From positions 6,944,001 to 7,008,000 of the forward strand of contig NZ_CP011125.1 of assembly GCF_000737325.1 (NCBI RefSeq): a DNA stretch of 64,000 nucleotides, written 5' to 3'. Position 1 is the stretch's first letter, and every line of letters begins with the position of its first letter. Both the position numbers and the translations under genes were made by a program. Under the pieces are notes generated by a model, which ran no database searches, was not told the origin of the DNA, and saw nothing but the letters and a program-made list of their open reading frames with translations. Positions 6,749-27,386 of this stretch are shown in pieces. The stretch comes from Sandaracinus amylolyticus. Lineage in GTDB: Bacteria; Myxococcota_A; Polyangia; Polyangiales; Sandaracinaceae.

Positions 6749-7294
6749 ATGCCGAAGCCGACCGGGCAGAACAAGAGCCGTGCCGAAAGGGGCCGAAACG
6801 CTCCCGGATCGTCGCCGAGCGTGGCCGCTCGGCGCGCCCGCGGCCTCCGCATGCTCCGTGAGGGCTCGCGCGTGAAGCACGTCGCCGAGAAGCTCGGCGT
6901 CAGCGTCACGACCGTGAAGCGCTGGCAGGCCGCCGCGAAGCTCGGCGAGCAGGTGAAGGCCGAGGTCGAGACCGAGGAGCAGGCGCGGCTCCGCGTCCTC
7001 GAGGAGGCGCGGACGAAGCTCGCGAAGGAGGTCGGCGACGCGGTGCAGACCGTGATCGACGTGATGCACTACACCGCGGCCGACGCGCTCGACGTCAACG
7101 AGGGCGACGTGAAGCCGAGCGAGTTCGCGCGCGCCGACTCCCGCGTCGCGAAGGTGCGGCTGCAGGCGGCGCTCGCGGTGCTCGACCGCGCAGGGCTGCC
7201 GAAGGTCAACGTGCTCGAGCACGGCGGCGATGCGCTGTCGCTCCTCACCGACCACCTGAACCGCGCGCTCGCGCAGGACGTCGACGAGACGTGA
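6749..7294 (+). CDS. terS: Terminase small subunit
   Basis: 181 aa from ATG 6749, chosen because GGAGG at 6739-6743 lies five bases upstream; a GTG at 6743 is in frame but overlaps that site. An N-terminal helix-turn-helix (VKHVAEKLGVSVTTVKRW) is followed by a long helical oligomerisation region. It would recognise the packaging site and form the ring that recruits the large terminase, whose GTG overlaps its stop. Confidence 0.75.
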   Translation: MPKPTGQNKSRAERGRNAPGSSPSVAARRARGLRMLREGSRVKHVAEKLGVSVTTVKRWQAAAKLGEQVKAEVETEEQARLRVLEEARTKLAKEVGDAVQTVIDVMHYTAADALDVNEGDVKPSEFARADSRVAKVRLQAALAVLDRAGLPKVNVLEHGGDALSLLTDHLNRALAQDVDET

Positions 7295-8910
7295 GCTCGG
7301 CGGAGCGAGCCGATCCGCGCGCGGTCGCGCGCGACGCCGCGAAGGTCCTGCGCGACCTGCGCCGGCTCGGCTCGCTCTTGCGCATCAAGACCAAGGCGAA
7401 CGGCATCGTCACGTTCGACTACTCGAAGTGGCACCCCGAGCAGCGCGCGTTCCAGCGCGACCGCACCGGGCGCGACGTGATCCTCAAGGCGCGCCAGGTC
7501 GGCTTCACCACCGAGGAGCTCGGCCGCGACGTGCAGTACGCCCGCACGCACGAGGGCGTGCAGGTGCTCATCGTCTCGCAGGACGCCGAGCTCGCCGAGG
7601 TGCTCTTCCAGGCGGCGCACCTGATGGTGCGCGGGCTCGTCGAGCTCGGGCTCTGCCCGAAGCCGAAGTACTCGACGCGCCGCGAGATCGTGTTCTCCGA
7701 CAACCACTCGGCGATCCGCGTTGTCGAGGCGGGCAGCACGGAGAAGAGCGCCGACAACAAGGGGCGGTCGGGGACCATCAACCGACTGCACGCCACCGAG
7801 GTCGCGTTCTGGGGCGCGGCGCAGAACACGATGACGGCGCTCCTCGCTGCCGTGCCCGAGAGCGGCGAGGTCGTGATCGAGTCGACCGCGAACGGGTCGC
7901 AGGGGCTCTTCTACGAGCTGTGCACCACGGCCCTCGCGGGCGGCGGTGAGTACAAGCTCCACTTCTACCCGTGGCACATGCACCCGACCTATCGGCGCGC
8001 GGTGCCGGCGGACTTCGATCTGCGACCGCGCGACCGGTGGGAAGAGCGCCTGCGCGCGGCGGGGTGCGACGACGAGCAGATCGCGTGGTGGCGCTCGCTC
8101 GTCGACAACCCCGCGCGCGGCGGGCTCGAGCGCGTGCTGCAGGAGTACCCCGTCGATCCGCAGTCGTGCTTCCGCTCGCCGGGAGGCGCGTACCTCCCGA
8201 CCGAGTGCGCCGACTGGCTCGGCGAGCAGGTGCGGAAGCCGCTCGCCCTCGAGACGATCGAGGTCACGTCGGGCGGCGCGAGCCGCAAGCTCGGCGAGCT
8301 CGTCGTCTACGAGCAGCCCGTGCCGGGCGGCAGCTACATCGCGGCCGCGGACGTCGCCGAGGGCATCGGCAAGGACGCGAGCACGATCGACGTGAGCGAG
8401 TGGCGCACGGGGCGCACGGTCGCGACGTTCGCGAGCGACACGATCGAAGCGGGCGATCACGGGCTCGCGCTCGCGTGGGTCGCCACGAAGTACAACGGCG
8501 CGCTCGTCGCGCCCGAGCGCAACAAGGACGGCGCCGCCGTGCTCCGCGTGCTCACGCGCGAGGAGAGCTCGGTCACGCCCTACCCGCGCATCTACACGCA
8601 CGACGACGGGCGCCTCGGCTGGCCGACCACGCCCGCGACGCGGCCCGTCCTCTTCGACGACTCGCGCCGCGCGATCGAGGAGCGGTGCTGGCTCACGCCG
8701 GACGCGCGCACCGCGGCCGAGGCCCGCACGTTGGTGAAGGTCGACGGCAAGCCCGTCGCGCGCGGCAAGGGCACCGCGGGCGGCGCGAAGGACGACGCGT
8801 GGGTCGCGAAGGCGATCGGCTGGCAGGTGCGCCAGCGCGCGAGCGACGAGGCCGGGACGGTCGAGACGGGTGCGACTCGCGAGACGTCGTCGCTGCAGGG
8901 CTACTGGTGA
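7291..8910 (+). CDS. terL: Terminase large subunit (ATPase-nuclease)
   Basis: 539 aa. The ATPase half has a Walker A variant KARQVGFTT (66-74), the phage-terminase form of this loop, and an acidic motif in the HATEVAFWG segment near residue 170. The C-terminal RNase H-like nuclease begins at AAADVAEG (Asp near 353). A conserved NGSQGLFYEL segment lies between the two. It pumps and cuts phage DNA at the portal. It overlaps terS by four bases. Confidence 0.9.
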   Translation: MSSAERADPRAVARDAAKVLRDLRRLGSLLRIKTKANGIVTFDYSKWHPEQRAFQRDRTGRDVILKARQVGFTTEELGRDVQYARTHEGVQVLIVSQDAELAEVLFQAAHLMVRGLVELGLCPKPKYSTRREIVFSDNHSAIRVVEAGSTEKSADNKGRSGTINRLHATEVAFWGAAQNTMTALLAAVPESGEVVIESTANGSQGLFYELCTTALAGGGEYKLHFYPWHMHPTYRRAVPADFDLRPRDRWEERLRAAGCDDEQIAWWRSLVDNPARGGLERVLQEYPVDPQSCFRSPGGAYLPTECADWLGEQVRKPLALETIEVTSGGASRKLGELVVYEQPVPGGSYIAAADVAEGIGKDASTIDVSEWRTGRTVATFASDTIEAGDHGLALAWVATKYNGALVAPERNKDGAAVLRVLTREESSVTPYPRIYTHDDGRLGWPTTPATRPVLFDDSRRAIEERCWLTPDARTAAEARTLVKVDGKPVARGKGTAGGAKDDAWVAKAIGWQVRQRASDEAGTVETGATRETSSLQGYW

Positions 8911-12252: not shown

Positions 12253-14007
12253 ATGGCGACGACCGACGCAGCAACGCCGGCCGCGGCGCCCGAGTCGCGC
12301 CCGGCGCAGGGCACGCGCATCGTCGGGCCCGAGCTGCGCTCGCGGTGGACGACGCCGCGCTTCGGAGCGATCACGCCCGAGCGCCTCGCGTCGATCCTCA
12401 AGAGCGCCGACGACGGCCGCACCGAGGACTGGGCGAACTTCTGCGAGTACCTCGTCGAAGACGCCGACCTCTTCGGCATCTATCACACCCGCCGCAACGC
12501 GGTCGCAGGCGCGCCCTGGGATCTCGAACCGGGCTACTCGCCAGATCCGATCGCGCAGCGGTACGCCGCGCGCGCGGCCGAGTTCTGCCGCCGAGCGATG
12601 CTCGAGATGGCTGACCTCGAGCGCACGTGGCTCGACGCGCTCGACGCGATCGGAGTCGGCTGGTCGGCAGCCGAGCTCATCTGGAAGCGCGACCACGGCG
12701 CGTGGGTCGTCTCGGACGCGGAGTGGGTGCGCGCCGCGCGCCTGCGCTTCGACGAGACGTGGAAGCTCCGCCTGTACGACATGGGCGAGCACGGCTCCGA
12801 GGGCCTCGAGCTCCCGCCCGGCAAGTTCCTCGTGCACGTGCCGCGCTCGCGCGCGAGCTACCCGGTGCGCAGCGGCGAGTTCCGCACGATCGCGTGGTAC
12901 TGGCTCTTCCACCGCTGGGTGATCAAGTACTGGCTCGCCACCGGCGAGCGGCACGGCGGCCCGTTCCTCTACATGCGCGTCCCCGCCTCGACGCGCGGCG
13001 ACGTGAAGCGCGAGGGGAAGGCGATCCTCGAGCGCATGCGCAACGACGGCGTCGCCGTCGTCGACGAGGGCACCTTCATCGAGATGCTCGAGTCGGCGAT
13101 GACGGGCGCCGATGTGTTCGACACGCTGTGCGCTCGCTTCGAGCGCGGCTACGCGAAGGCGCTACTCGGCGCGACGCTCACCGTCGACGTCGGCGACAGC
13201 GGCTCGCGCGCCCTCGGCACCGAGCACGGCAAGGTCCGGCTCGAGCGCTCGCAGGGCGACGCGCGGTTCCTCGCGGGCTCGTGGCGGCGCGACGTCCTCT
13301 ACTGGCTCTGCTTCCACAACCGGCACCTCTTCGACGGCGTGATGCCGCCGGTGCCGACCCTGAAGCTCCAGCCCGAGGGCGACACTGCGACGGTCAGCGA
13401 CAAGCTGATCGACATCGGCGGCGCGACCTACGACGAGGCGCGCGAACGCGACGGCCTGCCCGCGTGGGGGCCCGGCAAGGGCGGCGACAAGCGCATCCCG
13501 GCCGTGAGCGGAAGCGCCTCCGCGCTCCCTGCGCTCCCCACTCCTGGCGCGCCGTCTGGCGTTCCGGAGGGCGGCGAGAAGGTCGCCGACGCGGCGCTGA
13601 ACGGCGCGCAGATCGACGCCCTCAAGGGCATCGTCGCGGACGTCGCATCGGGTCTCATCCCGCGCGAGACCGGCATCGAGCTGATCGTCGTCGCGTTCCC
13701 GACCATCCCGCGCGAGAAGGCGCTGGAGATCCTCGGCCCCGTCGAGGAGGGCAGCGTCACGCCCGACGGCGAGCCCGTGCAGCAGGCGCCCGCGGGAGGG
13801 GCGGCGCCGCCCCCTTTCGGAGCGAGCGGCTCGACGCCGCGCGGCTCCGGTACGCCATCTCTCGCGAGTCGGGCGAGAGCCTCGCGCGCCCTGTCCTCTC
13901 GGACGACCAGCGCGCCGCGCTCCCCGACTACGCCGACGTCCTCGCGCTCGCAGATGAGCCCGCTCGCGCGGGCGCTGCTCGGCGGATCGGACGGCCCGAA
14001 GAGCTAG
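12253..14007 (+). CDS. Portal protein, Mu gp29 (DUF935) family; 0-frame product
   Basis: 584 aa. Residues ~25-520 match Mu gp29-type portals: an N-terminal TPERLASIL region, the central ATGERHGGPFLYMRVP and DEGTFIEMLESA segments, and the aromatic RDVLYWLCFHNRHLFDG. From about 13812 the 0-frame turns into Ser/Arg/Pro-rich nonsense, while the -1 frame continues coding, including the expected helical C-terminus of this family. The 0-frame end is thus probably an abnormal or alternative terminus. The portal forms the DNA gate at one capsid vertex. Confidence 0.85.
   Translation: MATTDAATPAAAPESRPAQGTRIVGPELRSRWTTPRFGAITPERLASILKSADDGRTEDWANFCEYLVEDADLFGIYHTRRNAVAGAPWDLEPGYSPDPIAQRYAARAAEFCRRAMLEMADLERTWLDALDAIGVGWSAAELIWKRDHGAWVVSDAEWVRAARLRFDETWKLRLYDMGEHGSEGLELPPGKFLVHVPRSRASYPVRSGEFRTIAWYWLFHRWVIKYWLATGERHGGPFLYMRVPASTRGDVKREGKAILERMRNDGVAVVDEGTFIEMLESAMTGADVFDTLCARFERGYAKALLGATLTVDVGDSGSRALGTEHGKVRLERSQGDARFLAGSWRRDVLYWLCFHNRHLFDGVMPPVPTLKLQPEGDTATVSDKLIDIGGATYDEARERDGLPAWGPGKGGDKRIPAVSGSASALPALPTPGAPSGVPEGGEKVADAALNGAQIDALKGIVADVASGLIPRETGIELIVVAFPTIPREKALEILGPVEEGSVTPDGEPVQQAPAGGAAPPPFGASGSTPRGSGTPSLASRARASRALSSRTTSAPRSPTTPTSSRSQMSPLARALLGGSDGPKS
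13812..13818 (+). other. Candidate -1 ribosomal slippery heptamer C CCT TTC
   Basis: In the portal frame the codons CCT TTC are preceded by C, giving the X XXY YYZ pattern. A -1 slip would pair as CCC TTT and lead directly into the coding frame of the portal C-terminus and F domain. The alternative is loss of one C from an original C6 run, by mutation or sequencing error. Confidence 0.4.
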
Positions 14008-14897
14008 TCGCGCAGTCGGTCCTCGAGGCGCTGCGCGGGCTCGCTCCCGCGCGAGAGCAGCTCGCCACGCTCGCCGAAGAGGCGGGCACCGCGGAAGGCG
14101 CGCTCGAGCTGTGGCAGCGGTGGGCCGTCGAGCACGAGCAGGACCCCGCGCTCGTCGAGCGCATCTACCAACCCGCCCTGCAGGCTGACCTCGCGGGCCG
14201 GCTCTTCGTCGTCGAGGTCGAGCTCGAAGGCGACGCGCCGACGCGCGCGCTCGCCGACGGCGACCTCCCGCCGTTCCTCCGGATGCCCTTCCTCGAGGCG
14301 ATCGAGGAGTTCATCCGGCGCGGCACGATCGAGGGCGGCGGCCTCGGCATCCTCACGCCCGAGGAGTTCTACGCGCTCTCCGACGCGTATCGGACGCGCG
14401 CGTTCACCGCGTCGCGGCTGCTCACCGAAGAGCTCGTGCGGCGCGCCTACGACGCGCTCGTCGCCGCGCTCGAGCAGGGCGGCACGCTGCGCGACTTCGC
14501 GCGCGCGCTCGGCGCGGGAGAGGTCGTCGCGGGACCGGGCTCGACCGGCTACCTGGAGACCGTCTTCCGCACGAACATCCAGGGCGCGTACGGCGCCGGC
14601 CGCTACCGGCAGATCAAAGCGATCGCGAGCGACCCCGACCTCGCGGCCGCTCGGCCCTACGTCGAGTACCGCACGGCCGGCGACAACCGCGTGAGGCCCG
14701 CGCACGTCGCGCTCGACCGCACCGTGTACCGCGTCGACTCGGCCGCGTGGGAGCGCATCGCGCCGCCCAACGGATTCAACTGCCGATGCTCGATGGTCCT
14801 GCGCCGCGCGCGCGACGTCGACGCGCGCCGCGTGATCGACGACCCGCCGGAGCGGGCCGACGACGGGTTCGACGCACCGCCCGCACCGGAGCTCTGA
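13815..14897 (+). CDS. -1 frame continuation: portal C-terminus plus Mu F/gp30-like head morphogenesis domain
   Basis: Frame is coding from 13815 to the stop at 14897 (361 codons) but has no ATG, GTG or TTG until ATG 14283, which lacks a ribosome binding site. It is therefore probably made as a fusion with the portal. The first ~110 codons are helices typical of the DUF935 C-terminus. The remainder has the SPP1 gp7/Mu gp30 signature: EFYALSDAYRTRAFTAS, FRTNIQGAYGAGRYRQI, YRTAGDNRVRPAHVALDRTV and the final PPNGFNCRCSMV. This minor head protein is usually ejected or sits at the portal. Confidence 0.8.
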   Translation, partial: FRSERLDAARLRYAISRESGESLARPVLSDDQRAALPDYADVLALADEPARAGAARRIGRPEELVAQSVLEALRGLAPAREQLATLAEEAGTAEGALELWQRWAVEHEQDPALVERIYQPALQADLAGRLFVVEVELEGDAPTRALADGDLPPFLRMPFLEAIEEFIRRGTIEGGGLGILTPEEFYALSDAYRTRAFTASRLLTEELVRRAYDALVAALEQGGTLRDFARALGAGEVVAGPGSTGYLETVFRTNIQGAYGAGRYRQIKAIASDPDLAAARPYVEYRTAGDNRVRPAHVALDRTVYRVDSAAWERIAPPNGFNCRCSMVLRRARDVDARRVIDDPPERADDGFDAPPAPEL

Positions 14898-14903
14898 CGA
14901 CCG

Positions 14904-16184
14904 ATGCACGCCTACGACGTCCCGCGCGAGTCTGCCTCGCGCGGCGTGCGCCTCGTTGCGCGCCTCGTGATGGACGCGCGCCCCGGGCCCGCGTTCGTGC
15001 CCGAGGTCCGGCGCGCGATGGTCGCGGAGGACTCGAAGCGCTCGTGGGTGCACCTCGTGTACGAGGGCACCTGGGAGGGCCACCGCGCCGGCACGTTCAC
15101 GTTCGACGGCGACCGCTTCGCGGAGATCCTCCGCAACTTCGACGCGCAGGCGAACGAGCTCGTCTTCGACTACGAGCACGCCACCGAGATGATGCCGAGC
15201 GGCGAGCCCGTGCCGGCCGCCGGTTGGATTCACGCGCTCGCCGTCGAGGGCGACTCGCTCTTCGCGTACGTCGAGTGGACCGCGCGCGCGGCCTCGCTGA
15301 TCGAGGCGGGCGAGTACCGGTTCTGCAGCGTCGTCGTCGACTTCGCTGCGCGCGATCGAAAGACCGACGAAGAGATCGACGCGCGCCTCCTGAGCGTCGC
15401 GCTCACGAACATTCCTTTCATCGACGGGCAGGAGCCGATCCGGCTGTCCGCGCGCCCGCGAACTTCCAGCAACGGAGCGACTCAGATGGGCGCGAAGACC
15501 AAGCCGCAGCCGAAGAAGACCCGCGTGCAGCTCTCGTCCGGCGCGAAGGCGCTGCTCGACCAGATCGCGACGCTGCTGAAGATCACGCTCGCCGACGGCG
15601 ACGACGTGTACTTCAAGGTCATGGACGCGCTCGGCGCGCTCCAGCAGGCCGCGAAGGTCGAGGACATGCTCGCGACGAGCACCGAGGGCCCGGCGCTCTC
15701 CGACCGTCGCATCCGCCGCAACGACGTGCTGCGGCTCGCCCTCTCCGAGGGCACGAAGATCACGCGCGAGCAGCTGCTCACCGCGCTCGAGCAGATCGAG
15801 GGCGACGACTTCACGCGCGAGCAGCTCGCCGCGCTGATCGAGTCGGTCGCGAAGATGGCCGAGGCGCAGGACGGCGGAGGCTCCAGCGAGCCCCCGCCGA
15901 GCGAGCCGGCCGCCGCGAGCGAGCCCCCGCCGGCTCTCAGCGCCCCCGCCGGCGCGCCGCCCGCGGTGCCCCCGCACCGGACGCTCCCGCGACGCAGGTG
16001 CAGGCGGCCGAGGTCTCGCCCGAGGACGGCATCGCGGTCACGCAGGCGCTCATCGCGGCGCTCGGCGTCCCCGATGTCGCGAGCGCGCTCGCGTTCATCG
16101 ACACGCACAAGGACGAGCTCGCGGGCATGGCCAGCGCGCAGCCCGCCGACGGCACGCAGGCCGATGCCGGCGGCGCGGCGATGA
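14904..16184 (+). CDS. Mu I-like prohead protease/scaffold, 5' part (frame changes near 15970)
   Basis: The N-terminal ~185 residues match Mu gpI-type proteases: TFTFDGDRFAEILRNF, ELVFDYEHATEMMPSGEPVPAAGWI and EYRFCSVVVDF. The phrase FDYEHA precedes a likely catalytic loop. A linker and scaffold-like helical region follow. An internal ATG at 15486 with GGAG upstream could start a separate scaffold, as Mu gene Z does within I. After about 15969 this frame degenerates and coding moves to the -1 frame; the stop at 16184 is likely artefactual or premature. Confidence 0.8.
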   Translation: MHAYDVPRESASRGVRLVARLVMDARPGPAFVPEVRRAMVAEDSKRSWVHLVYEGTWEGHRAGTFTFDGDRFAEILRNFDAQANELVFDYEHATEMMPSGEPVPAAGWIHALAVEGDSLFAYVEWTARAASLIEAGEYRFCSVVVDFAARDRKTDEEIDARLLSVALTNIPFIDGQEPIRLSARPRTSSNGATQMGAKTKPQPKKTRVQLSSGAKALLDQIATLLKITLADGDDVYFKVMDALGALQQAAKVEDMLATSTEGPALSDRRIRRNDVLRLALSEGTKITREQLLTALEQIEGDDFTREQLAALIESVAKMAEAQDGGGSSEPPPSEPAAASEPPPALSAPAGAPPAVPPHRTLPRRRCRRPRSRPRTASRSRRRSSRRSASPMSRARSRSSTRTRTSSRAWPARSPPTARRPMPAARR

Positions 16185-17173: not shown

Positions 17174-18115
17174 ATGACGGACATCGTCGACTACTCGTCG
17201 AAGTACGCCGCGGCGAACACGGCGTTCATCGCGTCGTTCGAGGCGCTCTTCGGACGCCCGGGCCAGGTCCTCTCGGACCTCATCTGCGAGAAGGTCCCGG
17301 TCAGCGGGATGACCCTCGAGGCACCCTTCCTCGGCAGCGGCAGCACGGTACGGGAGTGGGTCGGAAGCAAGCGCTTCGAGGACCTGCGCGCACACGGCAA
17401 GAGCTATCCGGTCAAGCCGTACGAGAAGAGCATCCGCCTGCCGGCGCTCCAGGTGCGGCACGACACGACCGGTGCGATCGGCCGCGCGATCGCGCGCGAG
17501 ATGGGCGGCGCCGTCGCGGGCTACTTCGAGAAGCCCGTGTTCGACATGCTCTACTCGAACCCCTCGGGCTTCGACGGCGTGGCGCTCATCTCGGGCTCGC
17601 ACCCCTACGGGGCGGCGGGCGCGACGCAGAGCAACACGACCTCGAACGCGCTCTCGCACTCCAGCTTCCGCGCCGGGATCCAGGCGATGCAGTCGTGGAC
17701 GATGGGCAACGGCGAGCCGCTCGAGATGAGCCCGACGCACCTCGTCGTCGGCGTCGACAACGAGGCGATCGCGCTCGAGATCGCCGGCATCGACAAGCCG
17801 GTCGGCGTCGCCGGCGACGGCTCGCTCGACTCGGGCACGCGCGTCGCGGCGGTCACCATCCGCAACGTGTACGAGGGCCGCGTGACGGTCGTCGTGTCGC
17901 CGCGCGTGCGCTCCGGCTGCTGGTACCTGATGGACCTCAGCAAGCCGGGCCTGCGCCCGCTCGTGCTCGGCGAGGCGCGTGCGCCGACCCCGATCCCGCT
18001 CGACGACGAGAAGACCTACTCGCGGTTCTACCGCGACGAGTGGGTGGGCTCGGTCGAGGCGGACTTCGCGCTCGGCGCCGGCCTCTGGCCGACGATCTAC
18101 GGCAAGCCGTCGTGA
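17174..18115 (+). CDS. Major capsid protein, Mu gpT family
   Basis: 313 aa, preceded by GGGAG at 17159-17163. The N-terminus with FIASFEALFG, the KPYEKSIRLPALQVRHD segment and the Ala/Gly-rich helix GRAIAREMGGAVAGYFEKPVFDML follow the gpT pattern of Mu-like prophages. The C-terminus ends with a beta-rich GLWPTIYGKPS. It has the HK97 fold by family knowledge and builds the icosahedral shell. No propeptide is obvious; the neighbouring protease would process scaffold. Confidence 0.9.
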   Translation: MTDIVDYSSKYAAANTAFIASFEALFGRPGQVLSDLICEKVPVSGMTLEAPFLGSGSTVREWVGSKRFEDLRAHGKSYPVKPYEKSIRLPALQVRHDTTGAIGRAIAREMGGAVAGYFEKPVFDMLYSNPSGFDGVALISGSHPYGAAGATQSNTTSNALSHSSFRAGIQAMQSWTMGNGEPLEMSPTHLVVGVDNEAIALEIAGIDKPVGVAGDGSLDSGTRVAAVTIRNVYEGRVTVVVSPRVRSGCWYLMDLSKPGLRPLVLGEARAPTPIPLDDEKTYSRFYRDEWVGSVEADFALGAGLWPTIYGKPS

Positions 18116-19177: not shown

Positions 19178-19651
19178 ATGACGCAGCTCCGCGTGACCGG
19201 CATCGACGACGCGATTCGGACGGTGCGCAGTGCAGCGGAGCGCGCGCGCGACCTGAGCCCGATCCTGCGCGTGATCGCCGAGGACACGAAGACCCTCGTC
19301 GACGACTCCTTCGACCAGTCGCGATCGCCGTCGGGTGCCCCCTTCGCGCCGCTCGCGCCGGCGACCAAGGCGCGCCGGCGGAAGGGATCGAGCAAGCCGC
19401 TCGTCGACACGGGGCGCCTGCGGAACAGCGTCTCGGCCAGCGCCGCGGGCAACCTCCTCTCGGTCGGCACGAATGTCGTGTACGGCGCGACGCACCAGTA
19501 CGGCAGCAAGCGCGTGCCGGCGCGTCCGTTCCTTCCGTTCGCCGGCGACCCGGCCGCGCCCGTCCTGGAGATGAGCGGGCCCGCCGGCGACCACTGGCGC
19601 GCCGTCGCGGAGCAGATCCGCGAATACATCATCACCGGCCGCATCACCTGA
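19178..19651 (+). CDS. Virion morphogenesis/tail completion protein, Mu gpG-like
   Basis: 157 aa with the Phage_tail_S pattern: an N-terminal helix, then SGAPFAPLAPATKARRRKG, the loop LVDTGRLRNSVSA, and VGTNVVYGATHQYGSKRVPARPFLPF. This VYGATHQYG...ARPFL motif is characteristic. It would complete the head-tail joint or tail end. ATG 19178 lies four bases after the preceding stop. Confidence 0.88.
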   Translation: MTQLRVTGIDDAIRTVRSAAERARDLSPILRVIAEDTKTLVDDSFDQSRSPSGAPFAPLAPATKARRRKGSSKPLVDTGRLRNSVSASAAGNLLSVGTNVVYGATHQYGSKRVPARPFLPFAGDPAAPVLEMSGPAGDHWRAVAEQIREYIITGRIT

Positions 19652-21472: not shown

Positions 21473-22054
21473 ATGCGACGAGGCAGCGGAAGCGGCGCCT
21501 TCAAGGTGGTCCGCACCTACGATCCGGCGCTCGATCCGGATGCGATCCCTCAGGAGCGCTGGATCCAGTTCATCCAAGAGCGCGATGTCGCGCTGCTCGA
21601 TGGCGCCGTCTTCCCTGGCGAGAAGACGACCGTGTTCCACTGCCGCCCGCTCTCGCAGGCGGAGCGCCGTGACGTGCGCGGACGTGCCGAGGCCGATCGG
21701 CACGAGCGCGCGTTCGCGCTCTGCGTGACGCGCGTCGAGCACCTCGCCGACGAGCACGGCGGGCACTCGACGTGGGTGCGCCCGAGCGAGGGCGCGAAGC
21801 CGCGTCCGCTCGGCGACCGTGAGCTCGAGGTCTTCTCCGAGGACGACATCCAGCACGTCGGTCAGGTGATCGTCGCCGCCAGTTTTTGCGCCCCCGACAG
21901 GCCGCTCTATGTGCCGCTGCTGGCTACCTGTCGGGACGCCATGACGGCAGCGGCGCTCGCATCGCAGCGCCGCCGTGCGGCGCGGACGACCGGCTCGTCG
22001 AGCTCACCCGACGCCAGCGCAGCAGCCAGGGAACCCGCGCCGGAAAGCCGCTGA
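21473..22054 (+). CDS. Tail assembly chaperone (G-like)
   Basis: 193 aa from ATG 21473, five bases after GAGGAGG (21461-21467). The protein starts basic, then has WIQFIQERDVALLDGAVFPG and an acidic-basic helical part. Its last ~35 residues are Ser/Ala/Arg-rich with poor coding quality, and a second coding frame begins under it. That overlap, and the position between tube and tape measure, is the hallmark of the lambda G/GT arrangement, in which a -1 slip makes a longer chaperone. Confidence 0.6.
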   Translation: MRRGSGSGAFKVVRTYDPALDPDAIPQERWIQFIQERDVALLDGAVFPGEKTTVFHCRPLSQAERRDVRGRAEADRHERAFALCVTRVEHLADEHGGHSTWVRPSEGAKPRPLGDRELEVFSEDDIQHVGQVIVAASFCAPDRPLYVPLLATCRDAMTAAALASQRRRAARTTGSSSSPDASAAAREPAPESR

Positions 22055-22392
22055 AGCTCGGGAAGCTCCGCGACGCTTGGGGATGCGACTGCGACGGCGA
22101 ACACCGCCAGCAGCCGCAGCACGCGCCGGAGCACGGGCACCTCGAGGCCATCGAGCGCGTCACCGGCTACCGCCCGCACACGTGCCCTTGGCGCGCGTTC
22201 TACGACGCCCTCGTCTCCGAGGTGATGCAGCTCGCGTGGGCGATCGAGGACGGGAACCTCCCGGCCCTCGTCAGCGACGACAGCCCAGCGGTCCTCGTCG
22301 ACGCGCTCGGCGTCTACCGCATGGCCCTGCTCGCGACGCGCGCCGAAGAAGCGCGACTGCGCCGCCCGAAGAAACCACCTCCACCGAAGTGA
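21886..22392 (+). CDS. Chaperone extension (T-like), -1 frame
   Basis: The frame opens at TTG 21886 inside the upstream gene, and convincing coding runs from about 21985 (ADDRLVELTRRQRSS) to 22392. No ribosome binding site is seen, so it is probably expressed by -1 frameshifting from the G-like gene. The coding part has CDCDGEH and CPWRAFYD cysteine motifs and a long helix. It ends Pro/Lys-rich, eight bases before the tape measure ATG. The exact slip site is unresolved. Confidence 0.55.
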   Translation: MRPRQAALCAAAGYLSGRHDGSGARIAAPPCGADDRLVELTRRQRSSQGTRAGKPLKLGKLRDAWGCDCDGEHRQQPQHAPEHGHLEAIERVTGYRPHTCPWRAFYDALVSEVMQLAWAIEDGNLPALVSDDSPAVLVDALGVYRMALLATRAEEARLRRPKKPPPPK

Positions 22393-22399
22393 GGGCCCG

Positions 22400-23914
22400 A
22401 TGGCCGCGGAGCAGATCGCCGTCGAGATCCGCTTCGACGGCGCCGACGATGCTGCGCGCAAAGCGGGCAAGGTCGCCGACTCCTTCGAAGAGATGGAGCG
22501 CGCCTCTCGCGCGGCCGCGACGCAGGCGATCGACTTCACGACGAAGCTCGCGAGCGCCGCGTCGGCGGTGCAGTCGCTCGCCGCGGAGTTCGGCGCGGAG
22601 GGCGGCGGGGTCGGGCTGCTCGCGAAGATGGCGCAGACCGCCGCCGCGACCGCGCAGCTCGGCAACGCCTTCGGTCCGAGCGGCGCGCTCGTCGGCGGGA
22701 TCATCGGCGCCGCGATCCCCGCGTTCGTCGCGATCGGCGATCGCCTCGGGCTCACGGCGCGCGCGCAGGAAGAGGCTGCAGAAGCTGCCGCTGCGCACGC
22801 CGAGGAGATGCAACGCCTCTCCGAGGAGGCGGAAGAGGCCGCGGAGCAGATGCGCGCGTTCAACGCGCAGGCGCTCGCGCGCGCGCGCGCGTCGGTCGGG
22901 CTCCAGGATGAGGGGCAGCTCGTCAACCGACTGCTCAACGCTCGTTCGTTCGAGACGCTCGACGAGGCGCGCACCGCGCTCGAGCTGATCGACCAGCGCA
23001 TCGAGCAGCTCGAAACGAGCGGCGGGAATCGCCTCTTCATCGAGGCGCAGATCGAGAACCTCACCGAGTCGGCCGAGCGTGCGCGCGAGGCGATCTCGTT
23101 TCTGCAGGAGCAGGAGGATCGCGACCGCGATCCCAGGCCGGAGCGCCGCAGCGGCCCGACCCGCGCAGAGATCGAGCAGGAGAACGTCATCGCGTTCCTC
23201 GAGCGCGAGCGGCAGGCGCGCGAGGAGGTGCTCCGCGTCATCGAGGAGCAGAAGCGCGCCGAGGACGAGCGACGCGAAGCGGCAGAGGAGTACTACCGGA
23301 CGGTCGCCGAGCGAGAGCACCAGAAGGCTCTCGACGACGAGCGCATCGAGCGGGAGGCCATCGCCGCCCAGCTCGAGCGCCTCGACGACTTCGTCCAGCA
23401 GCAGGACGAGGCCTCGCGGCGCGCGCAGGCCGCGACCGAAGAGCGGATCGCGTCGTACGAGACCGTCACCGGCGTCATCGTCGGCGGGCTCACCGACGCC
23501 CTCACCGCGATCATCGCTGGCGAGAAGTCCGCGGGCGACGCCTTCAAAGGGCTCCTCGCGAGCTTCCTCGAGTTCATCAGCGAGCAGGCTGCGCTCAAGG
23601 CGGCATATGAGGCGGCGGCGGCGATCGAGTCGTTCGCGACGCAGGACTACGCGGGCGGCGCGCAGCACATCGCAGCGGCGCTGGCCTACGGCGCCGTCGC
23701 CGTCGCGGCGGGTGCGGGCGCGGCCGTGCTGTCGCAGCCGAGCGCGAGCTCGCAGGACAAGCCCAGCGGCCCCGAGGAGCGCGCCGAGAGCGAGGGACGC
23801 GGCGGCGACACCGTCATCAACTTCAACTCGCCGGTCGTGACCGCGAGCACGCGCGCCGAGCTCGGGCGCGACCTCCGCTCGATGGTGCGCGAAGCCGATG
23901 CGCGGTGGTCCTGA
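22400..23914 (+). CDS. Tape measure protein (short)
   Basis: 504 aa, strongly helical. An Ala-rich N-terminus has a hydrophobic stretch GGIIGAAIPAFVAIGDRLGL (~95-115). A long charged coiled-coil (~125-350) is followed by a second hydrophobic zone AAALAYGAVAVAAGAGAAVL near residue 440. This matches tape measures, whose length sets tail length and which help DNA cross the inner membrane. It is short for the class, implying a short tail. A polar VINFNSPVV segment closes the protein. Confidence 0.85.
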   Translation: MAAEQIAVEIRFDGADDAARKAGKVADSFEEMERASRAAATQAIDFTTKLASAASAVQSLAAEFGAEGGGVGLLAKMAQTAAATAQLGNAFGPSGALVGGIIGAAIPAFVAIGDRLGLTARAQEEAAEAAAAHAEEMQRLSEEAEEAAEQMRAFNAQALARARASVGLQDEGQLVNRLLNARSFETLDEARTALELIDQRIEQLETSGGNRLFIEAQIENLTESAERAREAISFLQEQEDRDRDPRPERRSGPTRAEIEQENVIAFLERERQAREEVLRVIEEQKRAEDERREAAEEYYRTVAEREHQKALDDERIEREAIAAQLERLDDFVQQQDEASRRAQAATEERIASYETVTGVIVGGLTDALTAIIAGEKSAGDAFKGLLASFLEFISEQAALKAAYEAAAAIESFATQDYAGGAQHIAAALAYGAVAVAAGAGAAVLSQPSASSQDKPSGPEERAESEGRGGDTVINFNSPVVTASTRAELGRDLRSMVREADARWS

Positions 23915-24693
23915 TGGGCTACGTCTACCTCACCGCGTGGGATACGCGCGAGACGCCGATGAGCGTCGTCGTCGGGGGCTTCGTCTCGGGCACGGTGACG
24001 CTCTCCGAAGGGCCGATGTCGCACGCGCCCGCGGGCACGAGCGGCTGGGAGGGCGACGGCGCGATGCGGCTCGCGGAGGAGCTGCAGGCGCAGCTACAGG
24101 CCGAGCTCGACGCGTCGTTCACGGTGGGGTTCGACGCGACGCTGAAGCAGTACGAGGTCTCGGCCTCGTCGGCGTTCTCGCTCACGTTCACGGGCGAGGC
24201 GGGGCTCGCGCTTCGTCGCGCGCTCGGCTTCAGCGGGGACCTCGGCGCCGCGGACGAGCACGTGAGCGACGTGCTCCCCTACTACCTGATCGAGTCGAAC
24301 CTCGACGGGTGGAGCAAGGTGTCGGAGCCCTACGAGCCCGACGAGGACGTGGTGCAGGAAGCCGTCTCGGACGGCGGCATTCCGTACGCAGTCGCGCGCG
24401 ACACGACCGAACTCTGGTCCGACTGGACGCAGCCGATGGAACCGTACGCGCTGACGTTCGAGAGCGCGGCGAGCTCGTCGGCACCGTGGACCTGGCATCA
24501 CTTCTTCCGCCACGTCCGCGGCACGCACCGCTTCAAGGTGTACGAGGACCTCGCGGCGGGCGACTCGCTCGGCGTCTACATGCTCCGCGCCGAGGGCGCG
24601 ACCTTCTCGCTGCGCACGCGCGCACCTGTCGTCGCGGACTGGCGTGACCGCTGGGACATCACCTTCCTGACGCGCTTCATCCAGGCAGCATGA
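23914..24693 (+). CDS. Distal tail-like protein
   Basis: 259 aa, ATG 23914 sharing a base with the tape measure stop (TGATG); a GTG at 23905 is an alternative start. The sequence is beta-rich with SFTVGFDATLKQYEVSASSA and a C-terminal WDITFLTRFIQ. It sits directly after the tape measure, where distal tail proteins linking tube and tip are found. It ends four bases into the hub gene. Assigned by position. Confidence 0.6.
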   Translation: MGYVYLTAWDTRETPMSVVVGGFVSGTVTLSEGPMSHAPAGTSGWEGDGAMRLAEELQAQLQAELDASFTVGFDATLKQYEVSASSAFSLTFTGEAGLALRRALGFSGDLGAADEHVSDVLPYYLIESNLDGWSKVSEPYEPDEDVVQEAVSDGGIPYAVARDTTELWSDWTQPMEPYALTFESAASSSAPWTWHHFFRHVRGTHRFKVYEDLAAGDSLGVYMLRAEGATFSLRTRAPVVADWRDRWDITFLTRFIQAA

Positions 24694-27386
24694 CGAACCT
24701 CGCGATGCTCAAGGCGACCGGCCGCGGGACGCTGTCCGCGCGCGCGTCGATCGAGGGCCTCGGCGTGGAGTTCGTCACGCGCCCCGAGATGGCGGGCACA
24801 GCGGCCGACGGTCGTGTGCGCGTTGAGTCGCTCAAGCTCGACGGCTTCAAGACGACTGAGCGAGCACACCTGCAGCGCTCAACGCTCGAGGCCAAGGGTG
24901 CGACGATCAAGCTCGCTGACGTCGGGGGCAAGGTCACGCGCGCGCTCGCGGCCGAGCCCGAGCACACGACGTGGCTGACGCAGACCGTCGACCACGACGA
25001 TACGGCGATCGTCGTCGCGAGCACTGCGGGCTGGCCCACGTCGGGCGTGCTCCACATCGACACCGAGGCGATCCGATACACCGGCCTCGGCACCACGACG
25101 ATCGGCAGCGCCACCTACGGCACGTTCACGGGGTGCACGCGCGGCATCTGGGACACGATCGCGCAGCATCACTACGTCGGCATCGGGAGCACGCTGCGCT
25201 ATCCCGAGGTCACGTCGAGCGTCACGGTCCTGCAGGGCCGCCGCGTGCGGCTGCACCTCTACGAGCGCGGCGACGATCCGCAGGGTGACGGGACGCAGCG
25301 CTGGCTCGGCGTCGTGAGCGGCTCGCCGCGCATGAGCGGGCCGCAGTGGTCGATCATGCTCGACCCGATCTCGAGCATCCTCGACGCCGAGCTCGGGGTC
25401 GGGCTCGACCAGCAGACGGGCGCGCGCGGGATCAGGTACTCGGCGGCGGAGCCGTTCCGGCTCAGCCTGCAGCGCAAGCCAGGGAATCCAGACGTCGAGT
25501 ACACCGACCACGGCAGCGCCGCGTGGATCTGGGGCGTCGGCTCCGAGCGCCCGCTGATCGAGTTCCCGAGCGCGTCGCACGACGGCTTCTTCGAAAGCCA
25601 GGACGAATTCCTGGCGACGGTGCAGTCCGAGATCGACGCAGCGACAGCCGGATGGAACACGGCGGTCTTCATCGAGCCGTACGGCAATGCGTTCCGCTTT
25701 CGCGTGTACAGCGGTGGCAGCCCCGACGGCGTGGCGATCATCCTGAGCTCGAGCGGGAACACGTTCGGATCGCCGCGCGGTCCCGCGTGCGACGGCCTTC
25801 TCATCCCCGCGCTCTACACGAGCGACACGGCGCCGGAAGGCCTCCCCGAGACGACCATCGTCGCAGGGACCGACTACTACGCGTACTTGCACGGAAGCGT
25901 TCGAGGCGGCGGGCAGGTGCCGCGCGGCATCTTCGGCACGCCCGAGATCGCTCGCACCCACACCGCGCTCGAGGCCGACTCGCCCGCGTACCGCATCTTC
26001 CTCGGAGGCGCGGTCGCCGCGCCGCCCGCGGGCTCGACAGCGCTCGTCGAGTGGTCCGACACGGACACCGAGAAGAGCTACCGCGTGGTCGGCTCGGATC
26101 CGGCGCGCCGGGCAGTCGATCTCGAGCGCGGGTCGTCGCCCGATGATCCCGGGTTCCACTTCTTCACGCCCGAGCTCCCGGTCTCGATCCGCTTCGGCCG
26201 CTCCTACGGTGCGACGTCCACGAGCTCGGGGCTCGGCACGTTCACGTTGATGCAGGCGCTCGAGGATGAAGCGCCCGAGCAGGTGAACCTCGGCGCGCAG
26301 CCGATGATCCAGCCCGGCGACTGGAACGCTGCCGAGTGGGAGGCGGCGTACGCGGGCGCGAGCGCGCTCGCGACGCAACGCCGGTACACGACGTTCGAGG
26401 CGATCGCGCTCGCGGACCTGCTCACGCCGGACCTTCAGCTCGTCTCGCACTTCCTCGCGTTCGATTCGCAGGGACGTCTCACGATCAAGCGGCTGCGGCT
26501 CGCGTCGGCGACTGAGGCCGCGACGTTCGTCATCGACCGCGACACGCTGATCGGCTGGCCCACCTACGAGCGATCTCCGCTCGGGCAAACCAACACGCTC
26601 GCGCTCGTCGGCGGGTACGACGCGCGCGAAGGCGAGGCCGTCGGGCAGCCGTTCACCGTGCGCGACGCAGGCAGCTACGGGCGCGCGCCCGCCGCGCGCA
26701 TCCTCAAGATCGAGCCGCGCTCTGCGTACATCGGGCCTCCGATCACGCCCGATGACGTCATGGAAGTGGCGCAGACGGTCCTTGGGATCTTCTCGGGCCC
26801 CTACGCCTACGTCACGTGCGAGGTCCCGCTCACCGCAATCGACGCGCTGCTCGGCAGCACCGTCTCCTTCTCAACGCGGCATCTGCCGAACGAGAGCGGC
26901 GCGCGTGGGATGGACGGTCAGATCGGTCTCGTACTTGCGCGCGAGATCGACTGGTACGGCGCGAAGATCCAGCTGACTGTGCTTGTCGACGCGCGCCGCA
27001 TCGCGGGCTACGCGCCCGCGGGTCTCGTCACCGGGCAGACGAACACGGCCGGCACGACGTGGGCGATCACGCTCGACGCGCGCACGTTCGCGTCGGGCGA
27101 AGACGCCGCCGACCACTTCGTCGCCGGCGACGTCGTGTTCGTCCAGGAGTTCGACGACGCGAGCCCCACCGTCGTCGACGGCGAGGTAGTGAGCGCGACG
27201 GGGTACGTCGTCACAGTCGACCTACCCGGCGGATGGACGCCGGGCGCGTCGACGTGGATGCTGATCACGCGTGCCGCGACCACGCCGCCGAGCGCACGCC
27301 AGAAGCGCTACGCGTTCGTGGCTGGTTCGGACGCACGAATCGGCTTCTCGGACGGCGAGGAGTCGGCGCGTCAGTTCGCGCCGTGA
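24690..27386 (+). CDS. Tail hub/tip protein
   Basis: 898 aa, the largest phage gene in the window. It is mainly beta-rich. Residues ~120-200 with GVLHIDTEAIRYTGLG and FTGCTRGIWDT resemble a repeat seen in tail-tip proteins. From ~550 the pattern resembles baseplate hub domains (VGGYDAREGEAVGQPFTVRD). The C-terminus has two beta modules ending in FVAGSDARIGFSDG. It likely forms the tail tip that contacts the host envelope. No peptidase motif was seen. Confidence 0.7.
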   Translation: MTNLAMLKATGRGTLSARASIEGLGVEFVTRPEMAGTAADGRVRVESLKLDGFKTTERAHLQRSTLEAKGATIKLADVGGKVTRALAAEPEHTTWLTQTVDHDDTAIVVASTAGWPTSGVLHIDTEAIRYTGLGTTTIGSATYGTFTGCTRGIWDTIAQHHYVGIGSTLRYPEVTSSVTVLQGRRVRLHLYERGDDPQGDGTQRWLGVVSGSPRMSGPQWSIMLDPISSILDAELGVGLDQQTGARGIRYSAAEPFRLSLQRKPGNPDVEYTDHGSAAWIWGVGSERPLIEFPSASHDGFFESQDEFLATVQSEIDAATAGWNTAVFIEPYGNAFRFRVYSGGSPDGVAIILSSSGNTFGSPRGPACDGLLIPALYTSDTAPEGLPETTIVAGTDYYAYLHGSVRGGGQVPRGIFGTPEIARTHTALEADSPAYRIFLGGAVAAPPAGSTALVEWSDTDTEKSYRVVGSDPARRAVDLERGSSPDDPGFHFFTPELPVSIRFGRSYGATSTSSGLGTFTLMQALEDEAPEQVNLGAQPMIQPGDWNAAEWEAAYAGASALATQRRYTTFEAIALADLLTPDLQLVSHFLAFDSQGRLTIKRLRLASATEAATFVIDRDTLIGWPTYERSPLGQTNTLALVGGYDAREGEAVGQPFTVRDAGSYGRAPAARILKIEPRSAYIGPPITPDDVMEVAQTVLGIFSGPYAYVTCEVPLTAIDALLGSTVSFSTRHLPNESGARGMDGQIGLVLAREIDWYGAKIQLTVLVDARRIAGYAPAGLVTGQTNTAGTTWAITLDARTFASGEDAADHFVAGDVVFVQEFDDASPTVVDGEVVSATGYVVTVDLPGGWTPGASTWMLITRAATTPPSARQKRYAFVAGSDARIGFSDGEESARQFAP

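Follow-up and report, generated by a model that had tools for sequence, protein, structure and literature searches.

Programmed frameshifting in tailed phages has been documented mainly in tail chaperones and in extensions of coat and tail-tube proteins. The portal, the DNA gate at the unique vertex, is a different kind of gene, and the F/MuF head protein associated with it is a toxin carrier in some phages. In phage SPP1, gp7, the MuF protein, attaches to the portal protein gp6 and enters the procapsid in a few copies; gp7 is dispensable and aids infection (PMC6316719). In Escherichia coli, the sequence C_CCU_UUC gives high-level frameshifting, H_HHU_UUY motifs are among the best slip sites, and Shine–Dalgarno (SD)-like elements located 6 to 17 nt upstream stimulate frameshifting (PMC4066793).

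Here we analyzed a 64,000-nt stretch of the genome of the myxobacterium Sandaracinus amylolyticus (the window), in which a Mu-type prophage portal gene is joined to an F/gp30 coding region in the −1 frame. Comparison with related loci indicates that the junction is very probably a conserved programmed −1 ribosomal frameshift with an upstream SD-like stimulator in the portal gene.

Results

A slippery heptamer lies at the frame change in the portal gene

A prophage head-tail module surrounds the portal gene (Table 1). The 0 frame, which extends from an ATG to the stop codon at 14005–14007, matches the Portal_Mu profile with 240 bits (curated cut-off, 23.9), and the −1 frame matches the Phage_Mu_F profile with 61.8 bits (curated cut-off, 29.6). 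According to a preliminary description of this locus, the portal is in frame up to C CCT TTC and coding then moves exactly to the −1 frame. Direct reading of the sequence confirmed the heptamer in the context GGGAGGGGCGGCGCCGCC-CCCTTTC-GGAGCGAGCGG. A codon of the portal ORF starts at position 13813, which gives the register C CCT TTC, and a codon-usage HMM trained on 68,427 codons of the host genome located the change to the −1 frame at 13821, no more than 3 bases from the heptamer. The claim that the −1 frame has no start codon for more than 450 bases also held: the first ATG, GTG, or TTG past the heptamer is an ATG located 471 nt (157 codons) downstream.

The bare 7-mer CCCTTTC is unremarkable in the window (3 copies vs. 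1.55 expected). In the shift register, C CCT TTN has only two occurrences in a 1.06-Mb sample of host coding sequence, and C CCT TTC is the sole in-register X XXY YYZ across the 1.39 kb in which both frames are open.

Table 1. Features of the portal/F junction and of the surrounding prophage module (positions in the window)
Feature	Position	Strand	Evidence or remark
Terminase	7291–8907		
Mu-type portal gene, 0 frame, 584 aa	12253..14007	+	PF06074, E 6e-71; phrog_113; frame HMM
SD-like GGAGG, probable stimulator, 12 nt before the heptamer	13795..13799	+	14 of 19 lineages; anti-SD in host 16S rRNA
Slippery heptamer C CCT TTC (−1 slip: CCC TTT)	13812..13818	+	Kept at all 49 loci
−1 frame part of the putative fusion, 361 aa, accessible by slip only	13812..14897	+	Frame HMM; no start before 14283
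Possible stem-loop right after the heptamer	13819..13848	+	−20.6 kcal/mol for 40 nt; Fisher p 0.07
Helical domain (corresponding to the portal C-terminal domain in separate-gene relatives), −1 frame	13956..14222	+	hhalign; L168/L181 alignment; AlphaFold
Phage_Mu_F/gp30/MuF head morphogenesis domain, −1 frame	14451..14795	+	PF04233, E 1.3e-16; phrog_220, E 1.8e-39
Protease	14904 on		
Major head protein	17174–18112		
Neck	19178–19648		
Tape measure	22400–23911		
Baseplate	24690–27383		

Elsewhere in the module, just upstream of the tape measure gene (21473–22392), two genes overlap by approximately 170 nt in a −1 relation. The overlap contains T_TTT and C_CCC tetramers and a TTG start at 21886, and a canonical heptamer is absent; this pair is possibly a tail chaperone frameshift of a nonstandard type. 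The host genome also encodes a second, distant Mu-type portal (G000:C1:3713088-3714044, L002) approximately 3.2 Mb away, which suggests another prophage.

The slip site precedes the C-terminal helical domain of the portal

The two predicted products share an N-terminal part of 522 aa, slip codons included. Past these codons, the 0-frame product has a 62-aa tail of shadow-frame character. Where relatives encode portal and F as separate genes, a helical segment of the type 'LLARAMFMADLFGR' closes the portal and 'PLPPEEAIxFF' opens F; the −1 frame of the window contains both elements. When the early −1 region was compared by hhalign with the portal C termini of the separate-gene relatives, an E value of 2e-4 and a probability of 44% were obtained, which is moderate if taken alone. 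In the relatives L168 and L181, the same-frame alignment runs across the portal stop codon into F. AlphaFold modeling of the −1 part revealed a helical domain (residues 48–136) and an F domain (from residue 159) at a mean pLDDT of 80, and a search of PDB folds with the −1 part gave no match at E under 0.001. A link between portal and F through the stop codon in L168 and L181 was considered and rejected, the two being neighboring genes in which an ATG adjoins the stop.

Thus, the slip site is located upstream of the portal's own C-terminal helical domain. Judging from sequence, the 0-frame product most likely lacks the last domain of the portal, and the −1 product is most likely a complete portal plus F. 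The truncated and fused portals anticipated earlier would therefore correspond to one portal that is shortened and one that is complete and carries F/gp30 as a fusion.

The heptamer and the frame change are conserved in 19 lineages

A scan of viral contigs with the alignment of both F parts yielded 35 contigs containing both halves, and 12 more were obtained when the helical domain served as query; viral scans in which only the portal sequence or only the protease was used found no relatives. Together with a genome that belongs to the same order but to another family, these 47 contigs make up 48 further loci with the same portal/F junction. In that genome (G149, L058), the portal is approximately 31% identical, F follows at −1, and CCCTTTC is the sole in-register heptamer. 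The 49 loci, window included, represent 19 lineages at under 75% identity in the −1 part.

In all 49, the portal continues into F in the −1 frame and a canonical in-register heptamer is present at the join. By locus, the heptamers are CCCTTTC (34), CCCTTTA (8), CCCTTTT (4), and CCCAAAA (3); by lineage, the counts are 8, 4, 4, and 3, respectively. Two additional contigs that are cut before the portal also carry the heptamer, and a third is cut too near the site to be scored. Elsewhere in the portal frames, any X XXY YYZ was detected at only 5 of 4075 codon positions. In the L116 lineage, all seven heptamer bases are invariant over 19 distinct sequences, with variable neighboring bases, and the most variable codon position shifts at the heptamer from portal-frame position 3 to position 2. 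This shift in the phase of substitutions indicates that the −1 frame is the one under selection downstream. Conservation of the −1 frame past the site sets in at about codon 40.

These data bear on the possibility that RNA polymerase, rather than the ribosome, slips: transcriptional slippage at the C run would yield an edited mRNA joining the frames, and a fusion would result as well. Transcriptional slippage is known in bacterial mobile elements. The runs at the junction, however, comprise only 3 to 5 bases, and what is conserved is the heptamer pattern alone (CCCTTT or CCCAAAA), a signature of tandem tRNA slippage. We consider an origin of the fusion by RNA editing of this kind highly unlikely for the clade. 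In a distant genome of the same class (L097:4744-4755), the portal joins F at −1 through a run of ten A residues that could use such slippage. This junction is possibly an independent slip site or a site of transcriptional slippage; since it is a homopolymer in a draft genome, it is a lead only.

Sequencing error and prophage decay do not account for the frame change

The preliminary description had pointed out that an undercalled or lost C in a C6 run would explain the same data as a slip site. If one C had been lost through a sequencing or assembly indel, a truly continuous portal–F fusion would appear split. The location of the slip site within a C run, the occurrence of in-frame portal–F fusions in other clades, and a frame break that is not conserved, located at a second C5 run 2.1 kb downstream, are in line with this explanation. 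The run at the slip site, however, is C5 (13810–13814) and not C6, and the 47 viral contigs and the other genome share the frame change with C runs of differing length, often CCC, and even with CCCAAAA. The conservation of this slip site in dozens of distantly related environmental phages marks it as a real genetic signal.

The quality of the host genome was also considered. The 10.33-Mb genome of S. amylolyticus DSM 53668 was assembled from PacBio P6C4 reads at about 85× and polished with Quiver (PMC5010890); it consists of 10,327,335 bases in one contig. We scanned 60 evenly spaced 20-kb stretches (1.2 Mb) for frame breaks. None of the 483 coding C/G runs of five or more was located at a frame break, and only three weak break candidates were detected in this sample, none near a homopolymer of five or more. 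A random undercall is thus unlikely, and with the comparative data an indel as the cause of the portal frame change becomes very improbable. Of the two readings left open in the preliminary description, the slip site is the one backed by the comparison. Homologues with a continuous ORF and no heptamer, which had been named as evidence against slippage, were not found within the clade, where 49 of 49 loci keep both the heptamer and the frame change.

The downstream break mentioned above lies in the Mu-type protease/scaffold gene, where a −1 frame change occurs near 15970 at a C5 run (15969–15973). A second programmed site at this position (GTG CCC CCG CAC) was rejected: there is no heptamer, and in 15 of 15 relatives the gene is one continuous ORF of 467 to 673 aa. 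The break is thus a lone indel in the S. amylolyticus copy or consensus and not a second signal. The broken protease gene would be in keeping with decay of the prophage, in which case the portal frame change could be a true one-base deletion in this copy. But the portal frame change is common to the whole clade, and selection is maintained on both sides of it; of all the explanations considered, a deletion by decay is the one to which we assign the lowest probability. The S. amylolyticus prophage copy may be defective, though the frameshift signal is intact.

Portal and F are arranged in several ways outside the frameshift clade

In a portal tree, the carriers of the frameshift junction form one clade (100/100). 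Outside it, in-frame fusions, in which one polypeptide contains both PF06074 and PF04233, are present in L100, L107, and L156, at two separate positions among phages with separate genes. The L156 fusion (L156:3291-6104) comprises portal, F, and a PBECR2 nuclease-like domain in a single ORF. In L151 and L153, a helical domain of the portal C-terminal type opens a separate F gene, showing that the gene boundary has moved relative to the domain order.

An SD-like element is conserved upstream of the heptamer

A GGAGG motif is located within 25 nt upstream of the heptamer in 14 of the 19 lineages, against an expectation of 0.28 (P of approximately 5e-22 with a floor of 1% for each lineage), at a spacing of 7 to 19 nt. 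It occurs in two codon phases, indicating that the nucleotides and not merely the encoded peptide are conserved. The 3′ end of the host 16S rRNA, ...GGATCACCTCCTTTCT, contains CCTCC and a few more bases and is complementary to GGAGG. A perfect GGAGG is absent from five lineages, namely the three with CCCAAAA and two others. Its absence from the former would fit a stronger slip site that needs less help, three lineages being too few for a claim.

A strong SD sequence just upstream of the junction could alternatively serve as the ribosome binding site of a separately made F, the heptamer being incidental. Such internal initiation would find parallels in L151 and L153, where the helical domain and F form a gene with its own start, and in L112 and L113, two of the few relatives with nearer start codons, located 4 to 10 codons past the site. 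The window, however, offers no ATG, GTG, or TTG for 157 codons, yet the −1 frame is conserved from far upstream of that point. The positions of the first start vary even inside the L116 lineage (56 to 106), and an in-register X XXY YYZ in 19 lineages is not expected from an initiation site. Internal initiation is therefore scarcely probable, and the GGAGG is best regarded as a probable stimulator of −1 slippage.

A hairpin 4 to 10 nt past the site can be formed in most lineages, with a plausible position in several, but over 12 lineages it did not reach significance. A downstream hairpin is a possible additional stimulator.

Discussion

The aligned sequences show the change to the −1 frame, the heptamer, the SD-like element, and the selection that acts on the −1 frame past the site. 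For the event itself, we propose the following course. The GGAGG would pair with the anti-SD of the 16S rRNA in the elongating ribosome, which would pause while its P site holds CCU and its A site UUC, and the two tRNAs would re-pair one base back, on CCC and UUU. Ribosomes that do not slip would produce a portal without the C-terminal helical domain, ending in a short tail for which no conserved function is evident. After a slip, the portal core, the C-terminal domain, and F/gp30 would be made as one chain. Because the window contains a complete F part without a usable start of its own, the slip is the only evident source of F.

The efficiency of slippage would set the share of F-bearing subunits available for the portal ring, likely a minority. 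It is an evenly balanced question whether the ring is a deliberately mixed dodecamer in which the slip rate determines the number of subunits, out of twelve, that bear the helical domain and F. If so, slippage would set stoichiometry in a symmetric ring and anchor a few F domains covalently in the capsid, and a low F copy number may be its purpose. The continuous fusions show that all twelve subunits can be fused in some phages, which weakens a strict need for a low ratio; the fact that this clade has long conserved the slip suggests that two products are wanted there. More generally, the arrangement suggests a route by which a ring whose subunits are identical in all other respects could receive a few copies of the internal protein F/MuF. 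It also opens the number of MuF copies and their attachment to direct testing. A practical consequence is that automatic annotation would, in this clade, divide the gene into a wrongly ended portal and an F that is startless or cut at its N terminus.

The frameshift mechanism itself is known; its location at a portal/F junction, adding the portal to the phage genes that use it, is provisionally new. In excerpts of a review of frameshifting that describe coat, tail, and chaperone cases (PMC5009743), the word portal was not found, and no report of a frameshift at a portal/F junction was found in the open-access literature searched. Since that search was confined to open papers, the novelty is provisional.

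With the E. coli dnaX and IS3/IS911-type −1 signals, which combine an SD-like element, an X XXY YYZ heptamer, and a hairpin, the portal site shares the upstream SD-like element and the in-register heptamer, and its SD spacing falls within or close to the range shown by experiment to be stimulatory (PMC4066793). It differs from them in its location in a phage portal gene, in the use of C CCU UUN instead of A AAA AAG, and in that a hairpin is not established. The longer product is the −1 product, as in the IS elements and opposite to dnaX.

The tail assembly chaperones (lambda G/GT, SPP1 17.5/17.5*) are likewise phage morphogenesis genes in which a −1 slip yields a C-terminally extended minor product at a fixed ratio. 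Their proteins are unrelated to the head and portal proteins considered here, and their product is an assembly chaperone, whereas the portal fusion would be a virion ring component joined to an internal head protein. In T3/T7 gene 10, Lactobacillus phage A2, and Listeria phages A118, A500, and PSA, two forms of one structural protein can also share a virion; there, abundant coat or tail proteins are extended, often with Ig-like domains, whereas here the portal is extended with MuF. The in-frame fusions of L100, L107, and L156 have no frame change, so that every subunit is fused, unlike in the frameshift clade. In SPP1, finally, gp6 and gp7 are encoded by separate genes and bind as separate chains without a frameshift. 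A covalent fusion produced at the rate of slippage would, by analogy, carry a few F copies into the procapsid by construction, as the SPP1 portal does.
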